DNA from: Procambarus clarkii
Taxonomy: Eukaryota; Arthropoda; Malacostraca; Decapoda; Cambaridae
NCBI RefSeq assembly: GCF_040958095.1
Contig: NC_091193.1
Coordinates: 35,435,617 to 35,499,616 of the forward strand
Direction: 5' to 3'
Length of the DNA stretch: 64,000 bases
In this document: positions 16,749-46,696 of the stretch, one piece after another
Numbering within the stretch: position 1 is the stretch's first letter
Layout of the letters: every line of letters starts with the position of its first letter
Notes under the pieces: model-generated
Seen by the model: only the letters and a program-made list of their open reading frames with translations
The model's database searches: none
What the model was told of the DNA's origin: nothing
Position numbers and translations under genes: made by a program

Positions 16749-17349
16749 TAACAATATAATCAATATTATATCAAGTATAGATGGACCACTATTAAAGTAA
16801 AATCAAAATACTGTCTCTCCCAAAATAAAAATCTACTACATGACACAACAACAAGTAATCAGACTTATCTCCCACATGTTATTCCTTCTGGTCCCTTGAA
16901 GCTACTAACTACTCGGCTGTCGCTACCCATAATCCTCTCCCCCTCTGCCTCATCCAGGATGAGGGATGGAAAATACAGACTTTTTAATATTTAAAACTAA
17001 TTGAACAACCACTTGTTCTCAAAACACATAAGAATGCAAATTAAATATAATAGTTACTTTCAAAATATATAAGTTACAATGCCACCTGCTTAATTACAGT
17101 AAATTAACACAATATACTTAAAGTAAAAGTGACATCTGGAACTCCCATAACTGAACAGGTCCAGCAATTCTAATTTCCCGAATCTAACAGGTATTAGACG
17201 TGTGAAGAGCCACCGCGCTCCTGTCACCACTGACATTGCCACACCACACGATAATTTACCAAAATATAATATGTGTACATATATGATGAAATGGAACAGA
17301 ATAAGTTTATTTTAAATTTATATACGTATCCAGCTAGGAGTACGTAACA
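16549..17349 (-). repeat. 3' LTR of element A
   Basis: 801 bp, TGTTAC...GTAACA, with a (TA)n run near 16722-16749. It differs from the 5' LTR at roughly 16 positions plus small length changes by eye (about 2 percent), so the insertion is not very recent. Confidence 0.85.
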
Positions 17350-20300
17350 CTTCCACCTCCAAGAAAAAAATTGCAATGAATTGAAGATCAATGGCATTTT
17401 TTCCAAAGTAAAATGTATGACACTTGAGATTTATGGTATTAAGTACACCAAACATGTAAAAGTAATAAGAACACATTTCTGGACAAAAATGAAAACACTC
17501 CAAATATATTCTTACAGGAAACTCAGAAATTTCAGTGTTATGACTATGTTCTACAAATGTTTCACTGTAGTATGCAAATTTATCTCTCCAGGGTACTATC
17601 TCATTTATTTCACTTTGTTTCAGATCATATTTCACACACCTATCAACAACATTATCATGAATAGAATTGTCAATAAAGGTAGCTGCTTTCACACAGTTAT
17701 CACGGCAATTTATCTTTCTATCTATTTCTACTATTTCTCTAAGATCATTCCCGTATTTCCATGTTATCCCTTTTTCACATGGTGAATTTTTCCAAGACAG
17801 ATTCCATTTTCCATTACTCCCTTTTTCTGGAGCTGAACTGCTTAATTGAAGCTGACTGGATGTACAGTAGATTTGGGACTTCTCCTGGGTATGCTCTGAC
17901 AAAGACATCTGCTCTTCATCACTCTTGATCCTCCACACCTATTCCACGCGAGAGTATGTGGAACACATACTCTCGCCCAATGGATACTAAAATTAGAGAA
18001 ATTAACATTAAACCTCACAATTATGTATAAAACTTTCCCATTCATAGAACCTTCCGAAACACAACACAACAACTTAGCAAACCTTTGACCTTCAAACCAA
18101 GAAATACAACCCAAGATAAGTGCAAAGGCTACCTGATCGAACTGACTCAGATGATCCATAAGGAACACAGAAATCAATTTCCTCATAACTCTGTCATAAC
18201 GACCAGTGAAAGAAAACAGGCATATGCCTAGGCACCATATCTCAATCATAACTCCGAAGACAAGTTCACACCCTCTGATGGTGAACTTGAACACAACACA
18301 CACTTTCATCAACCGTCTAGTCTTCCAAGGGACTAAATACAACATGCCAAAAACTTGACAACCCTCACCATCACTTCCCAAGTGATTTACGTCTGATGAC
18401 AAACAATCAACCAAGAAGTTTAAGGGTCTTAACATCTTGAAGATGCACAGCAGATCACCTGGGAAACCCCCAAGGACAATCTGAAACCCTTTACAATGAT
18501 TAACACTAGGTAGGATAACTTTATCCCCCAACTTGAAATTCACACCTGAAGCCTCAAACATCTGCTCCCCAGTTTGATTTAATCCTTCACCATCATTATG
18601 ATGCTGAAAGTCAACTCCAATATGACTCTGAAAGTCAACACCACACTTAAGTGGAACATACACTTTTATCACTCGTGCATCAAAATAAACTGGATCTGAA
18701 TATAGAGACACTGCTCTAGTATAACTCACCACTTCCTCAGAACAACTGGATGCACAACCTACTTGAGTAAACTCTCTCTGCTCAACCTCAAGGCTGGACA
18801 AAGATGTCCCACAGTCCATTACTTCACAAGAAAATGGCTCCTGCAGAATAAAAGTAGATTTCAACATCCTACACACACTCTGACTCATTTTACACAATGA
18901 GAAATACTTACTCCACATGTAATGAGAATCACAAACCATAAAACTCCGCAACTTAGATCCAATTGATACTTTACTACTCTCAATTACAGTAAATTAACAC
19001 AATATACTTAAAGTAAAAGTGACATCTGGAACTCCCATAACTGAACAGGTCCAGCAATTCTAATTTCCCGAATCTAACAGGTATTAGACGTGTGAAGAGC
19101 CACCGCGCTCCTGTCACCACTGACATTGCCACACCACACGATAATTTACCAAAATATAATATGTGTACATATATGATGAAATGGAACAGAATAAGTTTAT
19201 TTTAAATTTATATACGTATCCAGCTAGGAGTACGTAACACTTCCACCTCCAAGAAAAAAATTGCAATGAATTGAAGATCAATGGCATTTTTTCCAAAGTA
19301 AAATGTATGACACTTGAGATTTATGGTATTAAGTACACCAAACATGTAAAAGTAATAAGAACACATTTCTGGACAAAAATGAAAACACTCCAAATATATT
19401 CTTACAGGAAACTCAGAAATTTCAGTGTTATGACTATGTTCTACAAATGTTTCACTGTAGTATGCAAATTTATCTCTCCAGGGTACTATCTCATTTATTT
19501 CACTTTGTTTCAGATCATATTTCACACACCTATCAACAACATTATCATGAATAGAATTGTCAATAAAGGTAGCTGCTTTCACACAGTTATCACGGCAATT
19601 TATCTTTCTATCTATTTCTACTATTTCTCTAAGATCATTCCCGTATTTCCATGTTATCCCTTTTTCACATGGTGAATTTTTCCAAGACAGATTCCATTTT
19701 CCATTACTCCCTTTTTCTGGAGCTGAACTGCTTAATTGAAGCTGACTGGATGTACAGTAGATTTGGGACTTCTCCTGGGTATGCTCTGACAAAGACATCT
19801 GCTCTTCATCACTCTTGATCCTCCACACCTATTCCACGCGAGAGTATGTGGAACACATACTCTCGCCCAATGGATACTAAAATTAGAGAAATTAACATTA
19901 AACCTCACAATTATGTATAAAACTTTCCCATTCATAGAACCTTCCGAAACACAACACAACAACTTAGCAAACCTTTGACCTTCAAACCAAGAAATACAAC
20001 CCAAGATAAGTGCAAAGGCTACCTGATCGAACTGACTCAGATGATCCATAAGGAACACAGAAATCAATTTCCTCATAACTCTGTCATAACGACCAGTGAA
20101 AGAAAACAGGCATATGCCTAGGCACCATATCTCAATCATAACTCCGAAGACAAGTTCACACCCTCTGATGGTGAACTTGAACACAACACACACTTTCATC
20201 AACCGTCTAGTCTTCCAAGGGACTAAATACAACATGCCAAAAACTTGACAACCCTCACCATCACTTCCCAAGTGATTTACGTCTGATGACAAACAATCAA

Positions 20301-20870
20301 CCAAGAAGTTTAAGGGTCTTAACATCTTGAAGATGCACAGCAGATCACCTGGGAAACCCCCAAGGACAATCTGAAACCCTTTACAATGATTAACACTAGG
20401 TAGGATAACTTTATCCCCCAACTTGAAATTCACACCTGAAGCCTCAAACATCTGCTCCCCAGTTTGATTTAATCCTTCACCATCATTATGATGCTGAAAG
20501 TCAACTCCAATATGACTCTGAAAGTCAACACCACACTTAAGTGGAACATACACTTTTATCACTCGTGCATCAAAATAAACTGGATCTGAATATAGAGACA
20601 CTGCTCTAGTATAACTCACCACTTCCTCAGAACAACTGGATGCACAACCTACTTGAGTAAACTCTCTCTGCTCAACCTCAAGGCTGGACAAAGATGTCCC
20701 ACAGTCCATTACTTCACAAGAAAATGGCTCCTGCAGAATAAAAGTAGATTTCAACATCCTACACACACTCTGACTCATTTTACACAATGAGAAATACTTA
20801 CTCCACATGTAATGAGAATCACAAACCATAAAACTCCGCAACTTAGATCCAATTGATACTTTACTACTCT
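17091..20870 (-). repeat. Exact tandem duplication, 2 x 1,890 bp
   Basis: Positions 17091-18980 and 18981-20870 appear identical. Predicted peptides on both strands match residue for residue at an offset of 1,890. The unit begins inside the LTR (its last 259 bp) and runs into the internal region, so a partial LTR ending at 19239 sits inside the element. The joint has a few bases of shared sequence (CTCAA). Confidence 0.9.
17350..17360 (-). promoter_or_regulatory. Polypurine tract of element A
   Basis: Minus-strand GGAGGTGGAAG lies directly before the 3' LTR, the expected place and composition for plus-strand DNA priming. Confidence 0.65.
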
Positions 20871-21120
20871 CAATGGTTTTACCAAAATTTCCTCCCATGA
20901 CTTCTGGAGCTGCCTGGAGTACTGTCTGCTCACAATCAATAATAACACTACCAAGCTGGGTCACATCCTCACAGACAACTGAAGAGGGAGGCTCAATGGT
21001 TCTCCATCTACTCGACAGAAGCTGATCCTCTGGCTGCTTTCCCACACTCTCCAGAACTGGATCTACAGTACAGACTGTCTCCTTGCTTCTCTCTGAAATC
21101 TTAGGGTCAGTTCTACTCAA
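19732..21120 (-). CDS. Unrecognised 462-residue frame downstream of protease, element A
   Basis: A long open frame lies between the protease and the polypurine tract, where pol or env would normally be. I see no reverse transcriptase (no YXDD), RNase H or integrase (no HHCC or DDE) motif. It contains several Cys residues and one short stretch, NFKLGDKVILP, that loosely recalls the C-terminal part of integrases; this may be chance. The 3' part of the frame (from about residue 94) lies in the tandem duplication and reappears as a 369-residue frame at 17842-18951. It may be non-coding spacer that has stayed open by chance. Confidence 0.35.
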   Translation of the reverse strand: MSRTDPKISERSKETVCTVDPVLESVGKQPEDQLLSSRWRTIEPPSSVVCEDVTQLGSVIIDCEQTVLQAAPEVMGGNFGKTIESSKVSIGSKLRSFMVCDSHYMWSKYFSLCKMSQSVCRMLKSTFILQEPFSCEVMDCGTSLSSLEVEQREFTQVGCASSCSEEVVSYTRAVSLYSDPVYFDARVIKVYVPLKCGVDFQSHIGVDFQHHNDGEGLNQTGEQMFEASGVNFKLGDKVILPSVNHCKGFQIVLGGFPGDLLCIFKMLRPLNFLVDCLSSDVNHLGSDGEGCQVFGMLYLVPWKTRRLMKVCVVFKFTIRGCELVFGVMIEIWCLGICLFSFTGRYDRVMRKLISVFLMDHLSQFDQVAFALILGCISWFEGQRFAKLLCCVSEGSMNGKVLYIIVRFNVNFSNFSIHWARVCVPHTLAWNRCGGSRVMKSRCLCQSIPRRSPKSTVHPVSFN

Positions 21121-21229
21121 TGCACATAAATTAAGGGAATCTGAAGCGAGCGGGCAAGTAACAGGTAGTTTGACCTCCTCCCCTATACTATCACCTTGAC
21201 TAGGGTGAGGCAGGGCCTCTACAACAGAC

Positions 21230-22234
21230 TTACTCTCGACAACTGATTCTAAACTTGGAGTGAGCGGGAATACTTATGCCAACCCGACATCTTGTCCTAA
21301 ACCGTTCACTTGGCTGGAATACAATAGTCGTGGATTTTAAGTTTCTCTCAACTCCTGGCACAACGTCCGTAGTGAGCGGGCAAGACAATGGTACATGGAC
21401 ATCCTTTCCCAATTTATTGGAATAAAGCAGAGTCATAGTATCAGGCTTACTCTCAACAACTAGGTCGGCCACACAGGAATCTGGAACAACCACATCCCAC
21501 TTCTCCACTGAAGGGGTACTGGTTACTGGAACAAATGCTTGAGTAACAACATTAGAACTGACAACTGGATTTATAATAGTACTGACATCAGCACAGGTAG
21601 AATGGACAAAACCATCTTCTACAACAGGTTGTTCATTCATAGAACTAATTTCAGCACAGGCAGAATAAACATGGTCTGTAACTGGCTGTTTACACAAACG
21701 GGGATCAATCTCACCCACAACATGATTTATGGCCACATCATTACCCAATATAACATCCACACCTGGGATGGGCAACTGTGTACTAACACCCACAATGCAT
21801 AAACTTGGTGTAATGGTGGATCTGAAATTAATGTCTATTAGAGGTACAGTCTTACATCCTGCAACACTCTGAAGAACTACAAACTTTCCAGTCTCTCTCT
21901 TTTCCACATCAGAAAGAATACTGGATGAAATTATGGTTTGGGAAGCACCTGTATCACGAAGAATAACCACTGGCTTCCACTTCCCATTAATACACAAAAC
22001 TTCACCTGAAGACATATATGGTGAATACTGTTTCACCCAATTGGGGTTCACAGTTACATGTTTATTAGTAAGTTTATTTTGCACACCTCTACAACAAATG
22101 AGACCAGTTGGTCGTAACTCAGGGTGCAATATAAAACAGGAATTAATTCCATGGCCTTTTCTCTTACAATGGGAACAAGACCTTACAGTGGACACACTGG
22201 TAGAACCAACTAGAAGGTTTAGAAGTAACCTCAT
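21230..22234 (-). CDS. Zinc knuckle and aspartic protease of LTR element A
   Basis: This frame overlaps the gag end and is reached by a +1 shift; it has no convincing start codon of its own. It opens with a CCHC knuckle (CSHCKRKGHGINSC; spacing CX2CX4HX4C). A retroviral-type aspartic protease follows, with active site LRDTGASQTII and the later ILGND motif. The C-terminal 150 residues are Val/Ser/Thr rich and not recognised. The frameshift could be programmed or a mutation; the in-frame integrity on both sides favours the former slightly. No reverse transcriptase follows. Confidence 0.75.
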   Translation of the reverse strand: MRLLLNLLVGSTSVSTVRSCSHCKRKGHGINSCFILHPELRPTGLICCRGVQNKLTNKHVTVNPNWVKQYSPYMSSGEVLCINGKWKPVVILRDTGASQTIISSSILSDVEKRETGKFVVLQSVAGCKTVPLIDINFRSTITPSLCIVGVSTQLPIPGVDVILGNDVAINHVVGEIDPRLCKQPVTDHVYSACAEISSMNEQPVVEDGFVHSTCADVSTIINPVVSSNVVTQAFVPVTSTPSVEKWDVVVPDSCVADLVVESKPDTMTLLYSNKLGKDVHVPLSCPLTTDVVPGVERNLKSTTIVFQPSERFRTRCRVGISIPAHSKFRISCRE

Positions 22235-23639
22235 TATTATTTGACATTCCTGACAATGAAGTAGCAGGGTTAGGTTTTGTAAGAGAAGAGCTCATGGGAG
22301 TAACTGGAGCACTAGGACTGGATGGATTCTGATAAGGAGTTCGGTGAGCATTATAATTTAATCTACGACTAGACTTAGGTGAAGTGGCCGTAAACTGGGC
22401 CTTAGTCAACAACTCATGCTCATCCGCGAGCTTTGACAGTTCATAAATGTCTGTTACATTCTTTTGTTCTGCCATAAAAGTAGACAACTTGTCTGGGAGA
22501 CATGACAATACTTCTTCCATGATAAGAAGATTCTTTAGAGCATCATACTCGGTTACTGAAAGTGACTTTAACCATCTGTTGCAAAAATTCATCTTTTGAC
22601 GAGTAAAATCAGCTTTTGTCTGATCACTTACCCTCCTTAGGTTCCGAAACTTCTGCCTGTGTGCCTCTGGATTTATTTGATACGCATTTAAGATCTTTTT
22701 CTTTACAAATTCATAATCAAAGCCATGAGCGTCAGGTAGGGATGTAAAAACCTCCTGACTACGCCCCTTAAATTGAGACTGCATGATTGCTACCCATTGA
22801 TCCCTTGGCCAGTTCATACTGATTGCAATCTTATAAAAATGTGCAAAGAAAACCTCAGGATCCTCCTCATTAAACTTTAGTAACTCTCTATACTTATTCA
22901 TCCTTATGGGATTGTTATCACTATTTGTTGAAACATTACTAGTATTTCCATGCCCAGCTGCCATACGCTGTGATTCAAGCCTGAAGTTTGTGTCAGGTAT
23001 TTGTTGTTGAATCTCTAATTGCCTAGTTTGTTCCTCGGCTTGTTGCTTCTTTGTTGCTTCTTGTTGCAACTGCATTAAACCTTTCTGGTTTTGTGCTGCA
23101 ATTTCTAAACGCCTAGTCTCAAGCTCCCTCTGCTGAGCTTCAGCCTCTAATAATTTCTGTTCCTTTAAAGCTTCAATCTCTAATAATTTCTGTTCCTTTT
23201 GAGCTTCAAGCTCTAATTGTTTCTTTTCCTTTTGAGCTTCAAGCTCTAATTGTTTCTGTTCCTTTTGAGCTTCAAGCTCTAATTGTTTCTGTTCCTTTTG
23301 AGCTTCAAGCTCTAATTGTTTCTGTTCCTTTTGAGCTTCAAGCTCTAATTGTTTCTGTTCCTTTTGAGCTTCAAGCTCTAATTGACGAGCTTCTAACTCA
23401 AGACGCTTTAACGTCATCTGATCACTTGACTCCTCTCTTAACTCCTCCAGAATTTCTTCGTCTAACACTCCATTCTCAACAAAATGCGTCACAATGACTT
23501 TCATAATTTGGGTTTTAACCATTCTATTGTTGGCGATCAAATCCAACTGATTTGCCATTTGTACTAACTCAGACTTTTTTAGGCTCTTAATTCCCTCAAA
23601 GTCTGGATGAGCCAACAACGACAACACTTGACTCTCCAT
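22164..23639 (-). CDS. Gag of LTR element A
   Basis: This is the capsid-type structural polyprotein. The ATG at 23637-23639 is chosen over one 12 nt upstream because the residues following it (MESQVLSLLAHPDFEGI) look like the natural N-terminus. A short helical N-terminal domain is followed by a long charged coiled coil (about 23165-23395) made of an 11-residue repeat based on LELEAQKEQKQ. The capsid-like domain then contains FNEEDPEVFFAHFYKIA, AYQINPEAHRQKFRNLRR and LADEHELLTK, a pattern shared with gag proteins that resemble SCAN domains. The frame ends at 22164 and overlaps the next frame by 71 nt. It is intact in frame, so it may be translatable. Confidence 0.8.
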   Translation of the reverse strand: MESQVLSLLAHPDFEGIKSLKKSELVQMANQLDLIANNRMVKTQIMKVIVTHFVENGVLDEEILEELREESSDQMTLKRLELEARQLELEAQKEQKQLELEAQKEQKQLELEAQKEQKQLELEAQKEQKQLELEAQKEKKQLELEAQKEQKLLEIEALKEQKLLEAEAQQRELETRRLEIAAQNQKGLMQLQQEATKKQQAEEQTRQLEIQQQIPDTNFRLESQRMAAGHGNTSNVSTNSDNNPIRMNKYRELLKFNEEDPEVFFAHFYKIAISMNWPRDQWVAIMQSQFKGRSQEVFTSLPDAHGFDYEFVKKKILNAYQINPEAHRQKFRNLRRVSDQTKADFTRQKMNFCNRWLKSLSVTEYDALKNLLIMEEVLSCLPDKLSTFMAEQKNVTDIYELSKLADEHELLTKAQFTATSPKSSRRLNYNAHRTPYQNPSSPSAPVTPMSSSLTKPNPATSLSGMSNNNEVTSKPSSWFYQCVHCKVLFPL

Positions 23640-23926
23640 CGTTACTAACACTTGGTACTTGATTCACAACAACAATTAAAACAATGGCACTGCACTACAC
23701 TTCACTGTAAAATTGTCAGAACACTAAAAATTCGCTTGGCCTCACTGCAAAAACAAAATATATAGGATGACTTACCTCAAAATCGTGAAACGTTGTTACT
23801 TGACACACAGGAAGGCTTGCTTGGCACATGGAATAGTTTGTAAAGAAACACATAGACACTTAACACACTAGTACCTAGGAAGGCAAGGTTAGATTAGCAC
23901 AGTTAAGTTTAAGTGGGAACAATATT

Positions 23927-36436: not shown

Positions 36437-36650
36437 TGCTTGTGCCCCCCACACTCATCTGTTGCTGGTGCTCCCCACACCCAGCAGTTACTGATGCCCC
36501 CCACACCCACCTGTTGCTTGTGCCCCCACACCCACCTATTGCTGGTGCCCCCCCTCTCCCACCGGTTGCTGGTGTCCCCCACACCCTCCTGTTGCTGGGA
36601 CCCCACACCCACCTATTGCTGGTGCCCCCCCTCTCCCACCGGTTGCTGGT
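36437..36650. repeat. 25/26-bp minisatellite, middle block
   Basis: 214 bp of array left between the two inserted elements. Its variants (CAGCAGTTACTGATG, CTCTCCCACCGGTTGC) match 49277-49367 in the right-hand array. Confidence 0.9.
36645..36650. repeat. Target site duplication, left (GCTGGT)
   Basis: Directly abuts the left terminus. The same hexamer occurs once at the related uninterrupted site at 49362-49367. Confidence 0.8.
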
Positions 36651-37125
36651 AGTAGTGGGAAGTACGACGTAGAGCGGCAATTTTGTTTTTTTCGACTGCC
36701 GCTCTACGTCGTAGGTGTATTTTCAACTTTTAGACCGGCAATTTTGTTTTTTTCGACTGCCGCTCTACGTCGCAGGGGTATTTTCAACTTTTAGACCGGC
36801 AATTTTGTTTTTTTCGACTGCCGCTCTACGTCGCAGGGCTATTTACAACTTTTACACCGGCAATTTTGTTTTTTTCGACTGCCGCTCTATGTCGTAGGGG
36901 TATTTTCAACTTTTAGACCGGCAATTTTGTTTTTTTCGACTGCCGCTCTACGTCGCAGGGTTATTTTCAACTTTTAGACCGGCCGTTTTGTTTTTTCCGA
37001 CTGCCGCTCTACGTCGCAGGGGTATTTTCAACTTTTAGACCGGCAATTTTGTTTTTTTCGACTGCCGCTCTACGTCGCAGGGCTATTTTCAACTTTTAGA
37101 CCGCCCGTTTTTTTTTTTCCGGGGT
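36651..37125 (+). repeat. Left terminal inverted repeat with seven 61-bp subrepeats
   Basis: The terminal sequence AGTAGTGGGAAGTACGACG is followed by tandem units of about 61 bp containing CGACTGCCGCTCTACGTCG and AACTTTTAGACCGGCAATTTTG. Seven copies of the AACTTTTAGACCGG-type core begin near 36727, 36788, 36848, 36910, 36971, 37033 and 37091. The inner limit is where similarity to the right repeat stops, after CCGGGGT. Partly similar degenerate units continue to about 37240. Confidence 0.9.
36663..36713. repeat. Terminal hairpin, left end
   Basis: TACGACGTAGAGCGGCA (36663-36679) and its exact reverse complement (36697-36713) surround a 17-nt T-rich loop, 12 bp inside the terminus. The outermost subrepeat half is inverted relative to the rest. 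Confidence 0.85.
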
Positions 37126-38345
37126 CTGTCTACGCACCCCTAGTTTCACGAACTTGAAGTACGACATAGACCGTACGTTTATGTTTTTCAGGGGCCAGTC
37201 TATGCACCCTGGGTTTTCTACAAGTCGCTCTATGGTCCCTGCCATTTTCTCTCAAGGGGATTAAACGGCCGCCCCAAGTCATCCCCAAATTTCGTTGGCT
37301 CAGTGACCCTGCACAGACATTGCTAATGGTCAATGACGTCACCAGCTAGCCGCTCAGCGTTCCTGCACGGGCATGTTCGAGGGGATTAAAAAGCCGGTCT
37401 ATGAGTCGTATGTTTTGCGATACAACAGTGACCTTAAAACCTAATGTAAAATACCATCATCCCTAGTCTATTTTTAATTTCATATTTACTTCCAACCATC
37501 GCCCATTACATTTATCAAAGAGGATCATGTATGTGAGGGAAGAACATAACTTCAGCACTGCAAGAAGTTATGTGTGTATTTTCAAGTTCGTCCCCTGCTG
37601 CCTGTATTTACCCAGGTCTTTTTCCTAAATATAAACTTATCGAATTCATTCCTATTCTGTTTCATGTTAATACGTATAATAGGTTAATAATATTCCCCTT
37701 TACTATGACCATTCAGTCACACCTCTATCATGTCACCCCTATTTCTTCTTCGTCGTCGTCGTCGTTCTAGAGAATATAATTTGAGCTTTGACAATCTTTC
37801 TTGAAGGATCGTTTATTATGCATAGGGCAAAAAAAAATAAAACTGCTATCAGTCTTTTATATGAAAAAATAGAGGCCTGGGCATTGGTGATTTCAATGCG
37901 AGTTCGGTAGTAACCCTATTCTTATGCACGTCTCACATTCGCTCAAAACATACCTCCCACACCATACTGTAGCATTTAACAAATAAAAAAAAAAACTCAT
38001 TCAGTAAAAGCAAGCCTCTCATATTTGAAATAAGGCCTTCTGCAGTTACCGCCTTTTGTGACGTCATCATCCCTAATGTGGCGCGAGGCTTCAACGGGCT
38101 AAATGCGGATCCCAGGAGGTTCACACATAAGTGTGAACTCTTAATCTGGCTTAATACCTCAACTGTACTCTGTGCTTCATCAAAGTTTATATTCAGCTAC
38201 AATAGCTCGTATTTTTGCTCATTGCTTATATTTTCTGTTATTCATAAACCCGATCAAACCTTCCTAACCTAACCTATCCTAACTTATTATATATAACAAA
38301 CAAATACATTCTACAGAACAGTTATTGTTGTTGTTTAGTGACATC
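37126..38345. other. Non-coding left part of the Polinton-like element
   Basis: No convincing frame. It contains TGACGTCA at 37334-37341 and 38059-38066. Short open frames at 37570-37770 and 37933-38124 have no recognisable content. Confidence 0.5.
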
Positions 38346-39020
38346 ATGAAAAGCGAACTCAGGTATAGGGATAATGTATTGCTGGCCATTAGCATATAGG
38401 TGTGAAGGTATTACTGCACCTTACTGGTCAACTATGTATGACGTCACCAGACAACCAATGCTACCTTTGGCGTCCTACTGGCATGTGTATTTGATGTTAT
38501 TATTCAAAAATGACTAGACTATCCATCCCCACCTAACCTAATCAGAGGTTTAAGAACATACATTTTAGTCATCCACAACTGTAATCATTATTCAGTGATA
38601 AGTTCAAAACTCAAATAGACACCCCAATGTTGTACTGCAATTTATAAAGAATTGTATGTTTTACCGCACAGTAGGTAAGTTATCGTGAAAAGCGACCTCA
38701 GGTATAGGGATAGGGTATTGATGGCCATTAGCATATAGGTGTGAAGGTATTACAGTACCTTACTGGTCAACTATGTATGACGTCACCAGACAACCAATGC
38801 GACCTTTGGCGTCCTACTGGCATGAGTATTTGATGTTATTATTCAAAAATGACTAGACTATCCATCCCCACCTAACCTAATCAGAGGTTTAAGAACATAC
38901 ATTTTAGTCATCCACAACTGTAATCATTATTCAGTGATAAGTTCAAAACTCAAATAGACACCCAAATGTCGTACTGCAATTTATGAAGAATTGTATGTTT
39001 TACCACAGAGTAGGTAATTT
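38346..39020. repeat. Tandem duplication of about 340 bp
   Basis: Copies starting at 38346 and 38686 (TGAAAAGCGA(A/C)CTCAGGTATAG) are nearly identical, each with one TGACGTCA (38439-38446 and 38778-38785). Confidence 0.9.
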
Positions 39021-39385
39021 ATCCTAATATCCATCCTCATCTGGGGCTTGAAAATGAAATTATTTCATACATTTTTATTATTTACCCGTAGAAAAACATA
39101 GTTTGCATTCTAGTGATATGACAAAATATGCATTTCACGTTAGAAAGAGCAATAAACCAGATGCTGATTGCAACAATCGCCCAAGTGTAGCTGCTGCTGT
39201 TTCATTGCAGGGGGAGAGCAACATTTCAGTTCCTCAGGCATTTTCATAAACGAGGGAATTCCTCACAGTAACAGCAATTATTCAGTGCTGTATATAATTT
39301 ATGCACTTTATACTACACAAAACTGTTTTCACGTACATCTGGCAAGTTAGTACAGTGAAAAAACAAAAATGCATTTAGAGATGTA

Positions 39386-40080
39386 TATCCTAACCTATCC
39401 TATCCTATCCTAACCTATCCTAACCTATCCTAACCTATTCTAACCTAACCTATCCTAACCTAACCTAGTCTAGCTAACTGGTGCTATCACATTCTATCCT
39501 CCAATCCAAACCTAACCTCTCCTAACCTAACCTAACCTATCCTAACCTAACCTATCCTAACCTAACCTAGTCTAGCTAACTGGTGCTATCACATTCTATC
39601 CTCCAATCCAAACCTAACCTAACCTAGTCTAGCTAACTGGTGCTATCACATTCTATCCTCCAATCCAAACCTAACCTATCCTAACCTAACCTATCCTATC
39701 CTAACCTAACCTATCCTAACCTAACCTAGTCTAGCTAACTGGTGCTATCACATTCTATCCTCCAATCCAAACCTAACCTATCCTAACCTAGCTGACTAGT
39801 GCTATCACATTCTATCCTCCAATCCAAACCTAACCTATCCTACACCATCCAGCACTGCCATATCCCATCCTACAATCCAAACTAAACCTAACCTAACTTA
39901 ACTGTCTGGTATTACCACATCCTATCCTCCAATCCGAACCTATCCTATCCTCCAATCGAAACTGAACCTAACTTAACCTAAACTGGCCCAAGACCAGCTA
40001 GTTCTTATATATCTAGTCCTAACCTCCAATCCTGGCGTATTCTATAACCACACCTATCCTATCCCATCCCAATCCTATCC
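39386..40080. repeat. CCTAA/CCTATCC array with a higher-order unit
   Basis: Telomere-like CCTAACCTAACC and CCTATCCTAACC repeats alternate with a longer unit that includes CTAGCTAACTGGTGCTATCA and TTCTATCCTCCAATCCAAAC. The longer unit appears at least five times with decay toward 40080. It resembles the arthropod telomere repeat TTAGG on the other strand but is interstitial. Confidence 0.85.
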
Positions 40081-40375
40081 TATCACAGGCATTCTTGTCC
40101 TTCTTTTATTTATATCAAGGATTGTATATTTCGCATTTTATCATTTAAAAAAAAAATTACAGTTGCTCAGGTAAAAACACATATAGATCATTTTATATTA
40201 TTTTATTGTAATAATATTTCACATCATACATAACTTTACATATTTGGAATACGCGCATAAAAGGGGAATATGCAATTTATTTATTTCATTTTTGTTTTCT
40301 GCATGATGGCCATAGAGCTTTGTTTGCACGTTAGGATTGCTTATTTAAATCTCATCTCAGGGGCGTTTATATAGA

Positions 40376-40754
40376 TTATGGGTTCTCTAATTTTCTTCTT
40401 TTTCTTCTTCCCCTAGCTGGTAAATCGGCCACATCTCGTTCGGGTAGACGTTGTTCCCTTGTGCGCACCAAGACAAAGACCTTTTTCTGTTTTCTCAATA
40501 CATATACTAAATGTGCTAATGCAGGATAGTATGCATTTATCCACTCTTCTTCTTGTTTGTTACTCCATCCTATACCACAATCGATGCCTGCCCCATATGG
40601 CATTATTACCCGTTTAATCGCATTATTACGTTTCGTCAAGCTTATAACTCTTTGAATGGCTAATTTAAATGCCCATCTTCTGCCGATGATAGTATCCTTC
40701 TGCAATCCCAACACTAAATCTTCATCTTTACTGTGATTCATGAGCATCTGCTTT

Positions 40755-40785
<31 letters not shown>

Positions 40786-41155
40786 CATTACTTGCATCAT
40801 CAATAGGTAAACCTGCAGCATATTGACAAATAACTGCTATAAGATGAGGTTGTACTTCTGGATCAGGGGATAAAGCAACTATTATATCCCCTGGTTTATT
40901 ACGATCTTTAAGAACCGCACAATGTGTTTCAGGACATATTTCCTTCTGCAAACGGCAAAAAGTGTATTTTTTCTCGAGCAGATGGGAAAATCCCCCAGAA
41001 AACTGGTGTGTTGCTGTCAAGTCATAGATAAGGCAGTCTCCCGGCTTAAAATTATAATCGTTAATAAAGTCAGCTTCTATTAGGGCAGCCTTGAGCTGGC
41101 GATATTTAGCAATAGTGTACCCGGACAGCATCTTGACCCGACTGTCTAAAATCAT
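40376..41155 (-). CDS. Macrodomain protein, TARG1-like, 259 aa, intact
   Basis: Likely binds or hydrolyses ADP-ribose attached to proteins. The macrodomain fold spans about residues 36-232: a beta strand GDCLIYDL, the loop region QFSGGFS in place of the usual glycine-rich substrate loop, and near the end RVIMPYGAGIDCGIGW, which matches the (I/M)PRIGCGLDRLxW-type motif of TARG1/OARD1-like macrodomains. Asp192 lines up with the catalytic aspartate known in TARG1. A poly-Asn stretch (residues 124-133, ATT repeat) is an internal insertion. The Arg/Lys-rich C-terminus (residues 248-255) could be a nuclear localisation signal. The gene is intronless; a TTAAAAAG motif lies just upstream (41176-41186) and AATAAA follows the stop at about 40276-40281. 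Family assignment is by motif; activity is inferred. Confidence 0.7.
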
Positions 41156-41409
41156 TTACGCTCCCAACTATTGTACTCTTTTTAAGCCCCTCCCACATTC
41201 AACAGGTTGGGAAATACAATAGGTTTAGATAAAATCCTATGTATCTCTCTTGTAAGCGTCACCCACATTCATCGGACAATAAAATACAATTGGTAAAGAT
41301 GAAATACAGTTATACATTTTTAGTGTTTATTATTACACACACACATAAAAATATGCATATATTCGAATATACAGAGTCTTTAAAATATACTAGAGGGTAA
41401 TAACATTGG

Positions 41410-42563
41410 CTAAAATAATCTCCTAGATACCTTATTTTCTTTTTCTAAATTTTGGGGATAGTCGTCAGCTAATATCCTTTTAAAATTTGGATCGTCCTCC
41501 CATCGCTGTGCATATTGGGAAGGAGAATTGCTACTACTATTACTGCTGCTGACACAAGTTCGTATAAACGATATATTCCTCAAATCCCTATTCTTAGAAT
41601 TTGCTTGTTCTACATCATGACTCACTTCACCGAGGTTCATAAAAATATCATCATCGCTGTCTGATATTGTTTCCACTACTATACACTTAGATGTGGAAGG
41701 ACCCTGTAACTTCGAAGTGACCTTGGAGGGAGAAGCATTAGTTTTCATAGGACGTGCTCCATTACTTTTCACATAGGGGGTTGACCTTCTTAATTTTCTC
41801 CTTTCGACCCTGCTCCTCCTACTGGGGGTCATCGTAGGCGTATCCCACACGCGCCAAGGACCCCCAGCTGTACTAGCAGCCGCAGCAGCCCCAGATAACT
41901 CTGCATTTTCAAGCAGGTACATGTCAGGAGTTTTCTTTATGGACGACGCTAAGATACTTGGGGATAAGGGCGTTGAATCCAACTCTTCAGTCACTGGAGT
42001 GGATGTTTGACGTTCGCACAAGGCCGGCTCATCAGAAAACAGGGGGTTCAGAGTCAGGTCTGGTACAGACTCATCCTTTGATTGCTGTCGTCGTCGTCGT
42101 TGATGTTGTTGTTGTTGGACAGGGCTACATGCTCTCGCAGCCAGTGACGAAGTCAGGTTTAAGGAGGAATATGTCCTCTCAAACAGTAAAGACTCCGAGG
42201 GCGTGTTTAGGGGATTTAAGTCCGTCTGTGTAGATTTCGTAGCATAGATTGGGTGAGAGGCTACCTCCTTCTCAGTAGTAGTAGTAGTAGTAGCAGCAGC
42301 TGCATCAACAGATGGCGAGTTTGAAGTTTCAGGCGAGCTTAAGTTCTGGGCAGCAGCTGGAGTAGTAGCAGAAAGAGGGATTTTAGAAGACCTTGAAAGG
42401 AAAGCCGTTATAGTTTCTGGGGTCAGGTTTGTTGCTGATATAATGGCCGGACCCATGATGACATATATATTCCCAGCAGATGTGAACTGGGCACCTCCCT
42501 TAATAATTTCTGAAAATATGAGAAGAAAAGGAGCCATAAGTTTCTATAGCAATAACCTCATAC

Positions 42564-42652
<89 letters not shown>

Positions 42653-42668
42653 GTTTAAGTAATCAAAA

Positions 42669-42714
<46 letters not shown>

Positions 42715-42767
42715 ATATATGTGTATATATTACATTAGTCACTATGCTCACCATTGAAATTCTCCAT
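41410..42767 (-). CDS. Serine-rich protein of 371 aa with a hidden first exon; function unknown
   Basis: Coding exon 1 is 42752-42767 (ATG plus 13 nt), followed by a GT donor at 42751-42750. The intron of 242 bp contains a long (TA)n and an A-tract of about 40. The acceptor CAG is at 42512-42510, and exon 2 runs 42509-41410 to the stop. The joined frame begins MENFNEIIKGG. Exon 2 alone also has an ATG inside the intron, which I consider spurious. The protein is low complexity: runs of Thr, Ala, Gln/Arg; a basic patch (SRRSRVERRKLRRS); and IVVETISDSDDD, which looks like a SUMO-interacting motif followed by acidic residues. This suggests a nuclear protein. A TATA box lies upstream at 42850-42857. 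No domain was recognised. Confidence 0.6.
42560..42710. repeat. (TA)n and poly(A) in the intron
   Basis: (TA)n at about 42564-42650 and an A homopolymer of about 40 at 42672-42710 lie within the predicted intron of the 371-aa gene. Confidence 0.9.
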
Positions 42768-42849
42768 TTCTTCAGCCGCAAGCAGTAGAATGCCGAGGTG
42801 AGTAGCGAGTGTAGTCGAATGTTTGTATTTTGTCCCCCTTACGTGAGGG

Positions 42850-42857
42850 TATTTATA
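42850..42857 (-). promoter_or_regulatory. TATA box of the 371-aa gene
   Basis: TATAAATA on the minus strand, about 83 bp upstream of the ATG, with a possible initiator CATTCG at 42821-42816. Two TGACGTCA sites lie just upstream. Confidence 0.65.
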
Positions 42858-42887
42858 CCCAACCAAGTATTAACCCCGCCCAATACG

Positions 42888-42919
42888 TGACGTCACACCC
42901 AATAAGCCGCGTGACGTCA
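42888..42919. promoter_or_regulatory. Paired CRE/ATF-type palindromes TGACGTCA
   Basis: TGACGTCA at 42888-42895 and 42912-42919, 24 bp apart start to start, 30-60 bp upstream of a TATA box. This is the typical place for CREB/ATF-family binding. Binding is inferred. Confidence 0.6.
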
Positions 42920-43040
42920 CCATGGAAGTTTTGTTTATGTCGATAGGTTAAAAAGTCGCATTTCAGTAGGATTAAGGGATAAATAAAAATATAAATGTTC
43001 ATGCACATATGTTTTTAATATTCAATAGATATTGACAATT

Positions 43041-44565
43041 TCAAGAAATAATTGGTCTGATTACATATAGAATATTTTGTCTGCAAATGGGACAGTTTTG
43101 CAGAGATAATAGGCACCAAGTACATGCTACCATATGATTGCAAGGTAGCAACACTACATCAATCTTATTTACCATGCAAATTTTACATATCATATCTTCT
43201 ACATTAGAAAAAGCCGTTGTTGCGGCCCCCATTTCAGCTGTAACATCCGTTCTAGGCATTATCTGATGCTCCAGATATGTAGGTATGCTAATATTTTCAA
43301 GTATTCCCATATCTTCAACAGCATTTGCGGGATTGGCTGTAGTTGCCCCATCCTTCAAATTTTCCCTTGTTTTTTCTTCAATATGTCGTATAGCCAGTTC
43401 TAGACAGGTGGATTCGGAAATGAGTGGCAATAAATCCTTGGTGACATTGAGATGTTCTCGAAGAATAGCTCTTGCACAGTCTGAGGGTATACCCTGGAAT
43501 CGTATCAGTTTTTGGAATGCAGGTATACCCTCTAACAATCTACTTATTAAACTTTCATCAATGGTCTTCTTAGGTTGCTGTGGAGGTTCCTTAACGTCCT
43601 CAATAAAATCACGTCCTTTCTTTATGTTGACAAAGGTACAATCAGGATAACTCCTGGCGTGCAATATCCAGGGTATGTCAGTCTCCTCGAAATTATTAAT
43701 CCCATTTCCACAGAAGAAGCAAAGGACATGATCGCTGATGCCTGAAAAAAAAAAAAAAAAATATGAAATACGGCATAGAGTAGGGTGTTCACAAAAAAAA
43801 CTAAAGTATATTCCCCTGTATATCTACAATTCTAAAATCCCGTTTTTAGCCGAATAAATTGAAGAGCTTATTATTATTATTATTAAAAATATTACACATA
43901 CCGAGGGAAAAGAAACCTGCTTCCGCTAGTTGACTGGATGTTTGTTTCACACACCCAGGCCAGGTCAGGTCAAAGGTTTCCAATCTGCTCTTGTATGAAG
44001 AAAAACGAGGATAGGCAGGGGCTCTATATTTAATCACCCCCATCATCTGTAAATTACACTCATCCTTCGACAGAGCTGCTAAAAAAAAAGCATATATTAT
44101 TATTGACGGGATATCCAACAGTCTAATGTGATAGATGAGAAAATATTACACATGCAAACCTTTTTTTGTTGTTTTTTTTTTGCTAGTAATATTACATGTT
44201 TAAAAAAAGCCATTACCTTTAGCTTCGCGTAAATTGGACGAGAAAAAGAATATTCCATATTGAAACGCAATTTCGCTAATTTCTAAGGGAACGTTTTCCC
44301 ACTTGGTACCAATAATGAAAGGACAGAATGGCGATGCACTCTGGTGTCTGCTGCGAGGAGTGTCCCCCTCAACCCATGCTCCTATCACATAATTACAAAA
44401 GGCGCAACAACAGTAATCAGTCGCTCTCAGATAATAGAACCCATCCCGCACTAGAGCCAAGGGAGCCAGCCACGTGACAGTCCAGTTAATAAAAGTATCT
44501 AATCGAATTCGCTCGCATTTTAGGCTATCCTTGCTGTAGAACTTCTTAGCACGTGCTTGTTCCAT
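43041..44565 (-). CDS. Inhibitor-of-apoptosis protein: two BIR domains and a RING, three exons, 408 aa
   Basis: Exons: 44565-44217, 44078-43902 and 43741-43041, with GT-AG introns of 138 and 160 bp; all phases join to one frame of 409 codons with the stop. BIR1 (exon 1) has zinc ligands C54, C57, H74, C81; BIR2 (split across exons 2 and 3) has C183, C186, H203, C210; both fit CX2CX16HX6C exactly. The C-terminal RING has ligands C361, C364, C376, H378, C382, C385, C392, C395. A helical segment between BIR2 and RING may be a UBA-like domain. IAPs bind caspases or their activators through BIRs and ubiquitinate through the RING. The groove position that is Trp in many BIRs is Trp64 in BIR1 and Phe193 in BIR2. 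Exon 2 has a TTAGCAG (NAGNAG) acceptor, allowing one optional residue. The gene appears intact. It could derive from the host or from a large DNA virus. Confidence 0.85.
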
Positions 44566-44600
44566 TGTGTATATTCTACCTCCCAGGCTGTATTGAGGAT

Positions 44601-44611
44601 ATATTTATATA
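44601..44611 (-). promoter_or_regulatory. TATA box of the IAP gene
   Basis: TATATAAATAT on the minus strand, about 36-46 bp upstream of the ATG, followed by CCTCAATACAG as a possible initiator. The leader would be very short. Confidence 0.65.
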
Positions 44612-45217
44612 CCCCTTCTCTCTCTCGGGTGCTGAATATCGCCATATATGCATCTTTTAAATGTAATTGACCAGACCGTCCCTAACCTGACCTTAGGTGT
44701 TAATTCTTTTTTAATATATAGACTAAAACGGCTCTAGATGCACAGGTAAATAGCAACTCGGCTAGCTTAAGAATTTTTAGCATTTAAAAAACTTATTATT
44801 TTATGTAGACACCAATTGCACTAGACTTTTCTTGCATATCTCCCTTGAATTTCAACAAAACCCATATAGCATACAGTAGCGCATAGAGGAGGATAAATCA
44901 TGTTAGGACGTGATCTTATGCGGTGTGAGTGACCTGCGAGTGGGCGGGGCGGGCAAAGGTAATTAAGGGGTAGTGGGGTTAGGCTGGAGGGTTAATATTG
45001 GGGTGCTACATCGTAAGAGACCTGAACAGAGTTGCCGGTGATATGTAATAACAAATATGTTTTTATATTTATTGTAGGTCCTCTTATGAAATAAGTAGCA
45101 TATTTGCAAAGGTAAAACCCCTAAGCACTACAGAGTGTGAATTTTAAAGTAATAATACTGGCTGGTTTTGAGAAAAAAAAATAGGTAATACTTTCTGTAT
45201 TCGCACTTAGGGATAGA
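44612..45217. other. Divergent intergenic region in the Polinton-like element
   Basis: Lies between the IAP gene (leftward) and the macrodomain pseudogene (rightward). Beyond the two TATA boxes I see no conserved signal; no TGACGTCA here. Confidence 0.4.
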
Positions 45218-45223
45218 TATAAG
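45218..45223 (+). promoter_or_regulatory. TATA-like box of the second macrodomain gene
   Basis: TATAAG, about 85 bp upstream of the ATG at 45305. Weak on its own; supported by the same arrangement at the other genes in the element. Confidence 0.4.
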
Positions 45224-45304
45224 CTCATACGACACAGGATTTGGGGAGTATTAGCCAGCCTGCCAGTGTTACTTGTCCATCCGTTCGCCGCAGCTGCTGA
45301 AAAC

Positions 45305-45934
45305 ATGAATTCACAAGTTGTAACTCGTGAGGGATATTTGACTGACGATGTGTATTGCAATAAGGAATCCTGTCTTGTGTATGGGGTGAACTGCATATCC
45401 TGCGACTCCTACGGTATATCTAAGGACTTAGCAGAAAAATATACATACGCCAGTGTGTACGAATCTCGCGAACGTTTATATGATCTTAAGAGATGCGTAC
45501 CTAAAGATAGACCTAAACCAGGAACAATTAACATCTCTAATTCTCGTGGACAAAATCTACCTTATATTATAGCCGCAGCCACCTAATATGGAATAGGAGA
45601 ACATTTAGAGAAGAATGAAATTGCTCAGGATATTTGCAAAAAATCTAAAGACAGAGCAATGGTAGCCGGTTTAAGAAAAGATACTTCAGATAATCGTTTG
45701 TCGTACTTTAAAGAGGCGATGAGTGCCGTGATAGATTTTATCCAGAAAAACCCTGAAATTTCGCGAGTAGTACTGCCCCGAGGTATTGGGCGCACATGTG
45801 CTCGGAGAGATGAAGTATAGGAAATATCCTATCTTCCAGTCATTGAAGAAATGCATAGGAAATTAAAACCCTTTAGTATTGATGTTATATTATTGAGTAA
45901 TGAAGACAATAAGAAAAAAACTACCACTCGGTAA
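45305..45934 (+). pseudogene. Second macrodomain-like gene, two stop codons
   Basis: One frame of 210 codons from ATG 45305 to TAA 45932-45934 is interrupted by TAA at 45584-45586 and by TAG near 45818. The parts align by eye to the intact macrodomain protein at 40376-41155: the strand CLVYGVN, then KDRPKPG, then GLRKDT and RVVLPRGIG near the end. The residue at the position of the catalytic Asp is not Asp, and the second stop falls just after it. So both the substrate-end motif and the frame are damaged. It is an ancient paralogue rather than a recent copy, because identity is low. I leave the broken frame as it stands. Confidence 0.6.
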
Positions 45935-45979
45935 CCTACCTGATGCGCAGTAAGACTGGGGCGCACACTCCTCTAGAGG

Positions 45980-45987
45980 TATAAATG
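45980..45987 (+). promoter_or_regulatory. TATA box of the third macrodomain-like ORF
   Basis: TATAAATG, 46 bp upstream of the end of the leader before the ATG at 46033. Confidence 0.5.
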
Positions 45988-46032
45988 GATGGAGTTTTAC
46001 CAATGTGTGGACATTAACCCCTGCTTGCAGCT

Positions 46033-46212
46033 ATGGATATTCCTACCCGCATTGGCGACTTTGCTTCTTTAGCTATTTATAATAACAAGGACTGTTTGCT
46101 GTACGATTTAGATGCCACAAGTGAGCAGATGAACCCCCAGGTACAAACATTATGGGAGCGATTCCCGTATGGTAGATTACATAGACAGAATATGCCGTAC
46201 AAAAATAAATAA
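46033..46212 (+). CDS. 59-aa ORF matching a macrodomain N-terminus, truncated by the right terminal repeat
   Basis: ATG 46033 to TAA 46210-46212. Residues 16-29 (YNNKDCLLYDLDAT) parallel CLIYDLTAT of the intact macrodomain gene, and a later (F)PYGRLHRQN matches the KYTFCRLQ region. The frame then ends 3 bp before the start of the terminal inverted repeat, so the rest of the domain is missing. This looks like a gene whose body was cut when the element end formed. It has its own TATA box. A functional short peptide cannot be excluded. Confidence 0.5.
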   Translation: MDIPTRIGDFASLAIYNNKDCLLYDLDATSEQMNPQVQTLWERFPYGRLHRQNMPYKNK

Positions 46213-46214
46213 AA

Positions 46215-46690
46215 ACCCCGGAATAAAAAAAAAACGGCCGGTCTAAAAGTTGAAAATAGCCCTGCGACGTAGAGCGGCAGTCGAAAAAAACAAAATTGCC
46301 GGTCTAAAAGTTGAAAATACCCCTGCGACGTAGAGCGGCAGTCGGAAAAAACAAAACGGCCGGTCTAAAAGTTGAAAATAACCCTGCGACGTAGAGCGGC
46401 AGTCGAAAAAAACAAAATTGCCGGTCTAAAAGTTGAAAATACCCCTACGACGTAGAGCGGCAGTCGGAAAAAAAAAAATTGCCGGTCTAAAAGTTGTAAA
46501 TAGCCCTGCGACGTAGAGCGGCAGTCGAAAAAACAAAATTGCCGGTCTAAAAGTTGAAAATACCCCTGCGACGTAGAGCGGCAGTCGAAAAAAACAAAAT
46601 TGCTGGTCTAAAAGTTGAAAATACCCCTACGACGTAGAGCGGCAGTCGAAAAAAACAAAATTGCCGCTCTACGTCGTACTTCCCACTACT
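46215..46690 (-). repeat. Right terminal inverted repeat with seven 61-bp subrepeats
   Basis: The reverse complement of 36651-37125, again with seven units (GGTCTAAAAGTTGAAAATA cores). It differs at scattered positions, so the two ends are not identical but clearly homologous. Confidence 0.9.
46628..46678. repeat. Terminal hairpin, right end
   Basis: The same 17-bp arms, at 46628-46644 and 46662-46678, mirror the left end. Confidence 0.85.
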
Positions 46691-46696
46691 GCTGGT
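46691..46696. repeat. Target site duplication, right (GCTGGT)
   Basis: Directly abuts the right terminus and continues as GCTGGTGCCCCCC minisatellite. Confidence 0.8.

Follow-up and report, generated by a model that had tools for sequence, protein, structure and literature searches.

Polintons are usually described as autonomous virus-like transposons. Do they also have satellites, and do the transposons of animals bring along genes that let the cell survive while they replicate? Both questions are raised by an insertion of 10,040 bp in the genome of the decapod Procambarus clarkii, at positions 36651–46690 of a stretch of 64,000 nucleotides (contig NC_091193.1, positions 35,435,617 to 35,499,616) that is referred to here, as a whole, as the window. 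The insertion has Polinton-type ends and carries a gene for an inhibitor of apoptosis (IAP) protein together with paralogous genes that we call A, B and C. This IAP cassette rides on Polinton-ended elements in which no polymerase or integrase was detected, and it does so in two families whose arms are unrelated. We favor the view that such elements are Polinton satellites, mobilised in trans and carrying an anti-apoptotic payload, and would give it a probability of about 0.77. Direct support comes from the ends, the target-site duplications, a full-length partner, the recurrence of the cassette and signs of constraint on its genes.

Ends and target site of the window element

The element begins with AGTAGT and finishes with ACTACT, and GCTGGT stands on both flanks, which match at 6 bp and at no other length tested between 1 and 14. 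A sequence-only reading of the window, made earlier, had described 475-bp inverted termini, AG...CT ends, a 6-bp duplication and a length of 10,040 bp; all of this was borne out when the sequence was re-checked, the termini being 98% alike (466 of 473 aligned positions identical, 7 mismatches, 4 gap columns). Beyond what that reading had noticed, each terminus is a tandem array of 7.4 units of 61 bp. The element is inserted in a minisatellite with a 25-bp unit that includes TGCTGGTGCCCCC, and therefore the adjacent minisatellite units display the uninterrupted site. The structural features are as follows.

36645–36650: left target-site duplication, GCTGGT
36651–37125, + strand: left terminal inverted repeat, starting with (AGT)2, 7.4 units of 61 bp
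37120–40400, + strand: internal portion of the long left inverted repeat, which the related copy C399 has at both ends and which is missing at the right end here
39386–39951, + strand: CCTAACC/CCTATCC tandem array, arthropod-telomere-like
46216–46690, − strand: right terminal inverted repeat, ending with (ACT)2, 7.4 units of 61 bp
46691–46696: right target-site duplication, GCTGGT

The region of the CCTAACC/CCTATCC array sits in both arms of C399. Ends of this kind are familiar from vertebrate Mavericks, in which (AGT)2//(ACT)2 is the commonest end motif, the duplications are of 6 bp and the terminal inverted repeats measure 46–1,447 bp (PMC8097293).

Related copies and a full-length partner

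The left terminus has at least 70 matches in the window's own genome (4.03 Gb, 2,308 contigs; the best 40 of 247 candidates were scored). These yielded 13 paired copies of 5.3–16.0 kb, with the window's copy included and a double element on C22 counted once, plus 13 unpaired ends. All 13 pairs have (AGT)2//(ACT)2 or AG...CT termini, and 12 of the 13 unpaired ends, all of which were fetched, keep AGTAGTG or CACTACT. Other copies with 6-bp duplications, which the sequence-only reading had named as the check to make, do exist: the duplication is perfect in 12 of the 13 pairs, with 12 different sequences, and in 13 of 14 once one pair from a second family (below) is added. The exception, C27, has no duplication, and its flanks are inverted repeats. 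Each of the 12 other paired copies, in the pieces fetched, also matches large parts of 37120–38995. Because these 12 share the terminus, it is very unlikely that the inverted ends are an assembly joint. The double element (C22:33376004-33389833; L011-L013, L074-L076) consists of two family elements back to back, joined as ACTACT-AGT-AGTAGT, with a single outer 6-bp duplication, CCTGTA.

One copy, C22a, is the full-length partner that the sequence-only reading had hoped for, sharing the repeats and encoding polymerase B and integrase. It is 16,006 bp long with the duplication TCCCAG; its ends are 94% identical to those of the window element over 468–469 bases, and its subterminal DNA is 93.6% identical over 1,539 bp. 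It encodes DNA_pol_B_2, an rve integrase with Chromo, and a Pox_A32-type ATPase, and the DNA_pol_B_2 was also recovered independently by a family search as a stop-free frame of 1,068 amino acids (aa). Its frames of 385, 290 and 199 aa have no Pfam match supporting a capsid or protease, and against PDB sequences the 290- and 385-aa frames gave a best E of 0.091 and no match, respectively. The three frames could nonetheless be capsid and protease genes, with a putative resemblance to Polinton capsid proteins and an adenain-type protease. It is by its ends and the sequence held in common with this full-length copy, and not by gene content, that the window element belongs to the Polinton family.

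Searching the same genome with PF03175 gave at least 95 matches (best 91 of 1,428 candidates scored), most of the DNA_pol_B_2 frames being free of stops, many with near-equal scores, and about 1,250–1,300 aa long. So many similar frames suggest other recently active Polinton-like families.

Copy C399, 15,917 bp long, has inverted arms of 4.0 kb that are 99.4% alike. Its gene block is about 92–98% identical to that of the window and lies in reverse orientation. Compared with it, the window copy is short of about 4.3 kb, namely the remainder of gene C and the greater part of the right 4-kb arm; in C399 itself, IAP exon 1 is interrupted by an insertion of about 1.2 kb. Arms of about 4 kb also differ from the vertebrate Maverick repeats, which reach at most 1,447 bp in the set described in PMC8097293.

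Palindromic copies

Unexpectedly, near-complete palindromes make up nine of the 13 paired copies (C29, C36, C38, C68a, C26, C73, C70, C6 and C27).

Loci L051–L059, L063–L073 and L077–L080: palindromic copies, 5–15 kb

The mirror match spans 80–95% of each palindrome half, the outer few hundred bases lying outside the pieces compared. The largest outer arm blocks are 98.5–100% identical, and the centre of C36 is 97.0% identical. No cassette gene was found in any of these copies and no open frame of at least 130 aa, except for two of 134 aa in C6. Eight of the nine are bounded by perfect duplications between unlike flanks, and therefore the insertions are real; the palindromic structure itself might be a product of assembly folding. 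If genuine, the palindromes are likely to have arisen as snap-back copies made in protein-primed strand-displacement replication and then integrated. They could then be a mark that such replication has left in an animal germ line.

Genes of the window element

The payload consists of a spliced gene for an IAP with two BIR domains and a RING domain, the paralogous genes A, B and C, and ORF2, which belongs to no known family.

40376–41155, − strand: gene A, 259 aa, open, A/B/C family, no known domain
41410–42537, − strand: ORF2, a reading frame of 375 aa, Ser-rich, no family match
43041–43741, − strand: IAP exon 3, second half of BIR2 and C-terminal RING
43902–44078, − strand: IAP exon 2, open frame between GT-AG sites, putative boundaries
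44217–44565, − strand: IAP exon 1, BIR1, with a TATA-like box about 46 bases upstream of the ATG
45305–45931, + strand: gene B, paralogue of A, divergent from the IAP gene, with in-frame stops here
46033–46209, + strand: gene C, only the N-terminal 59 codons, ending at the right terminal repeat

The IAP assignment made from the letters alone was verified, with E values of 8.8e-14 and 2.1e-8 for the BIR domains and 9e-14 for the RING (exons searched separately). The gene appears to comprise three exons joined at GT-AG boundaries, the middle one of 177 bases, with summed lengths that are a multiple of three. TATA-like boxes precede the IAP gene, C and ORF2, and none was seen upstream of B; ORF2 probably has a short first exon at 42752–42767, 3′ of its TATA-like box. 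The "five gene-like frames" of the sequence-only reading hold good as five genes or remnants, but the IAP gene is spliced, stops interrupt the frame of B and C has been cut short. Elsewhere in the genome, other copies hold intact versions of both B and C. Domain searches gave no family match for ORF2, IAP exon 3 had no match among phage records, and scans of IMG/VR found no relatives.

In 65 open frames from the interior of the element, Pfam searches at E up to 0.01 returned no polymerase, integrase, ATPase, protease or capsid domain; BIR, RING types and one weak DUF561 were the only matches. Likewise, tblastn with ten frames of C22a found nothing in the window or in the pieces obtained from 14 other elements. 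With no core-gene match by either route, the window element is therefore not an autonomous Polinton, and the non-autonomous status proposed for it stands.

Recurrence of the cassette

The sequence-only reading knew of no described element with the combination of genes seen in the window. The cassette is a repeated unit rather than a one-off, found in four lineages, of which lineage 1 is the window's. Genome searches gave at least 151 matches for gene A (147 of 2,634 candidates scored) and at least 150 for IAP exon 3 (150 of 1,316 candidates scored). In every one of the four lineages the IAP gene lies head to head with B, followed by C; in pairwise comparisons B is 44–61% and C 41–58% alike. 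The position of A varies: in lineages 2 and 3 it comes after C, in the window it is on the opposite side of the IAP gene, and the 2.2 kb read for lineage 4 did not contain it. Within 20 kb of each other, 30 IAP-A pairs were found against 0.21 expected under random placement (150 IAP and 140 A places, both lists being the best-scored part of larger candidate sets), with 20 pairs divergent, 10 on the same strand and none convergent.

Lineage 2, represented by C37, includes dozens of copies of A with about 52% identity to that of the window, and its locus L093 is 96.3–99.2% alike to eight others over the aligned stretches. The C37 copy starts with AGTAGTGAATAAGG, ends in the complement, is flanked by TATATA duplications, has arms of about 3.1–3.3 kb and carries IAP, B, C and A. 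Neither its left nor its right arm has any similarity to the window element. Pfam found no core gene in 7 of its 11 frames of at least 130 aa, with BIR and RING above the cut-off, and the C22a frames had no match in it. Lineage 2 is thus a second Polinton-ended family, with arms unrelated to those of the window family. Just inside its arm, a frame of 177–180 aa with no known family is kept in both of the copies read (L093:528-1070 and L092:530-1060).

Against lineage 1, lineage 3 (C64) shows 50% identity in IAP exon 1, 44% in B, 38% in C and 41% in A, and element ends were looked for there and not found. Lineage 4 (C22:24.66 Mb) shows 40% in IAP, 58% in B and 55% in C. One IAP match lies within 20 kb of a PolB match, where about 0.14 would be expected: at C8, an IAP exon match (C8:40303599) and a PolB match (C8:40322299) are 19 kb apart on one strand, and it is possible that this IAP gene sits on a PolB-bearing element.

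The A/B/C family

The three genes are paralogues, A being 30% and 40% identical to pieces of B and 29% identical to C, and an alignment of 17 members holds 13 invariant columns. The sequence-only reading had labelled them macrodomain or ADP-ribose genes, and searches with Pfam, NCBIfam, PDB profiles and hhalign lend this no support. At E values up to 5, neither Pfam nor NCBIfam gives a Macro match for any of the 17 members. When 177,635 PDB sequences were searched with a profile of the family (E up to 10), two unrelated weak chains were recovered and no macrodomain, and hhalign against Escherichia coli YmdB and four phage macrodomains gave a probability of 0.3%. Two AlphaFold models of the family, with a mean predicted local distance difference test (pLDDT) of 32 and 46, are too poor to judge the fold. 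The 50 Foldseek matches shown of 1,156 for these low-confidence models are RecA/Rad51-type chains with template-modelling (TM) scores, normalised by query, of at most about 0.3, and no macrodomain is among them. Other weak Pfam matches among the 17 members were TRAF_BTBD17 (0.0033) and Baculo_LEF-2 (0.0088), with three members each, NAD_binding_10 (0.033; two members) and others. The spacing of the motifs PG... and PYG.G...W looked macrodomain-like, which might reflect a very distant relation. The three genes form a conserved family without an assigned fold, whose products probably act together with the IAP. The family is abundant in the genome, seemingly constrained and without a known domain.

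Selection on the cassette genes

Ratios of non-synonymous to synonymous substitution rates (dN/dS) were calculated by the Nei-Gojobori method, comparisons within lineage 1 being those with the window or sister copies. Within that lineage dN/dS is 0.23–0.28 for A (three comparisons), 0.13 for IAP exon 1, 0.21 for IAP exon 3, 0.27 for B and 0.22 for C, with ORF2 at 0.47–0.54 (two comparisons). Between lineages 1 and 2 the ratios are 0.20 for A, 0.13 for C and 0.18 for IAP exon 3, at synonymous divergences (dS) of 1.9–2.6 that make them unreliable. Two further comparisons, of IAP exon 1 between lineages 1 and 2 and of A between lineages 1 and 3, are saturated in dS and give no ratio. By this measure the cassette genes look constrained.

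Discussion

It is informative to set out how a satellite Polinton of this kind might work. It would retain the cis-acting (AGT)2...(ACT)2 ends within long inverted repeats, the genes for replication, integration and particles having been exchanged for an anti-apoptotic cassette. A full-length Polinton with near-identical ends would supply the protein-primed PolB, starting on the terminal AGT repeats by jumping-back, a feature of protein-primed replication to which terminal repeats have been linked (PMC8097293). The integrase of the helper would insert the linear DNA and leave the 6-bp duplication. Mobilisation of the window element by a Polinton of the C22a type is suggested by the ends that the two share. 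The IAP would probably bind caspases or pro-apoptotic proteins, so that the cell could survive while linear Polinton DNA is replicated. The window copy itself is decayed, with stops in B and, relative to C399, the rest of C and most of the right arm lost.

Several observations weigh against this account. Among the 13 paired copies, drawn from the best 40 of 247 candidates, a single one with these ends bears PolB. Few substitutions lie behind the dN/dS values (10 synonymous and 11 non-synonymous for A against C46, 4 and 2 for IAP exon 1, 2 and 2 for B), and between lineages dS is near saturation. The anti-apoptotic action of the IAP is assumed from its domain content. Furthermore, because 11 of the 15 elements tested, C22a included, have no cassette gene, and because ends are established for two of the four cassette lineages, we hold the satellite reading with caution.

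These same observations bear on other explanations. The elements might be internally deleted Polintons that captured host genes, with the genes as passengers that have no function for the element. The broken B and truncated C of the window, the split IAP exon 1 of C399 and the elements lacking a cassette gene are what one would expect of passengers, and IAPs are ordinary animal genes. However, the arrangement of IAP head to head with B, then C, persists in four lineages whose B and C are 41–61% alike, none of the 30 IAP-A pairs is convergent, and dN/dS lies at 0.13–0.28, albeit on small counts; we consider the passenger explanation unlikely. A little less likely still is that the window element is the second segment of a divided Polinton-like virus, spreading with a segment for polymerase, integrase, ATPase and particle proteins. 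The two segments would have packaging and replication ends in common, the survival genes would lie on one of them, and the palindromes would be snap-back products.

An origin as a piece of an endogenous nimavirus seems very improbable. The majaniviruses of penaeid shrimp have BIR genes and some eukaryotic-like, intron-containing genes, and endogenous nimaviruses insert into repeats (PMC10871703); these mobile DNA viruses therein resemble the window element, which is inserted in a minisatellite and has a TAACC-like array inside it. On the other hand, the elements studied here have defined boundaries with Polinton ends, 12 of 13 sites show the 6-bp duplication, and a Polinton partner, C22a, shares those ends. 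The same source gives nimavirus genomes of hundreds of kilobases with tyrosine recombinases or a Ginger2-like integrase and other ends, the terminal inverted repeat of a sesarmid nimavirus being a different sequence of 46 bases. Pfam likewise returned only BIR, RING and the weak DUF561 for the 65 frames, with no search aimed at nimavirus core genes. Least credible of all is a foldback-type cut-and-paste element, Galileo/P or Foldback-like. Tandem 61-bp units within the terminal repeats and near-palindromic copies do recall foldback elements, and Galileo has long, internally repetitive terminal inverted repeats (PMC3573991), but the 6-bp duplications, the (AGT)2 ends and a PolB/integrase copy with shared ends speak for a Polinton, and none of the 65 frames holds a transposase domain.

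Taking the satellite reading as the preferred one, it is worth considering how these elements compare with known systems. They resemble Polintons/Mavericks in the 6-bp duplication, the (AGT)2//(ACT)2 ends, the long terminal inverted repeats and a family member with PolB, rve/chromodomain and A32 ATPase, and differ in the window element, which showed no core gene and whose payload is an IAP and A/B/C paralogues. Adintoviruses, the Polintons of animals, are genomes with PolB and capsid, and some reportedly carry accessory genes for cell survival; here, by comparison, the survival gene sits on an element in which neither PolB nor capsid was detected. Helper-dependent satellites and virophage-type parasites would provide a parallel in that cis-acting ends are kept and trans functions borrowed, with the difference that the window element showed no capsid gene. 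That mobile DNA viruses of crustaceans can carry IAP genes is already known (PMC10871703). A PubMed Central search for Polintons or Mavericks with IAP, macrodomain or apoptosis showed no IAP cassette on a polymerase-less Polinton-ended element in the titles and starts of abstracts listed. The sequence-only interpretation was thus sound in its Polinton-type ends, non-autonomous status and IAP; it erred in the macrodomain label and missed both the loss of about 4.3 kb relative to C399 and the recurrence of the cassette.

Other features of the window

Elsewhere in the window, two blocks at 17318–18993 and 19208–21273 repeat the same frames, and the frames that adjoin them at 21230–23663 look gag-like by eye.

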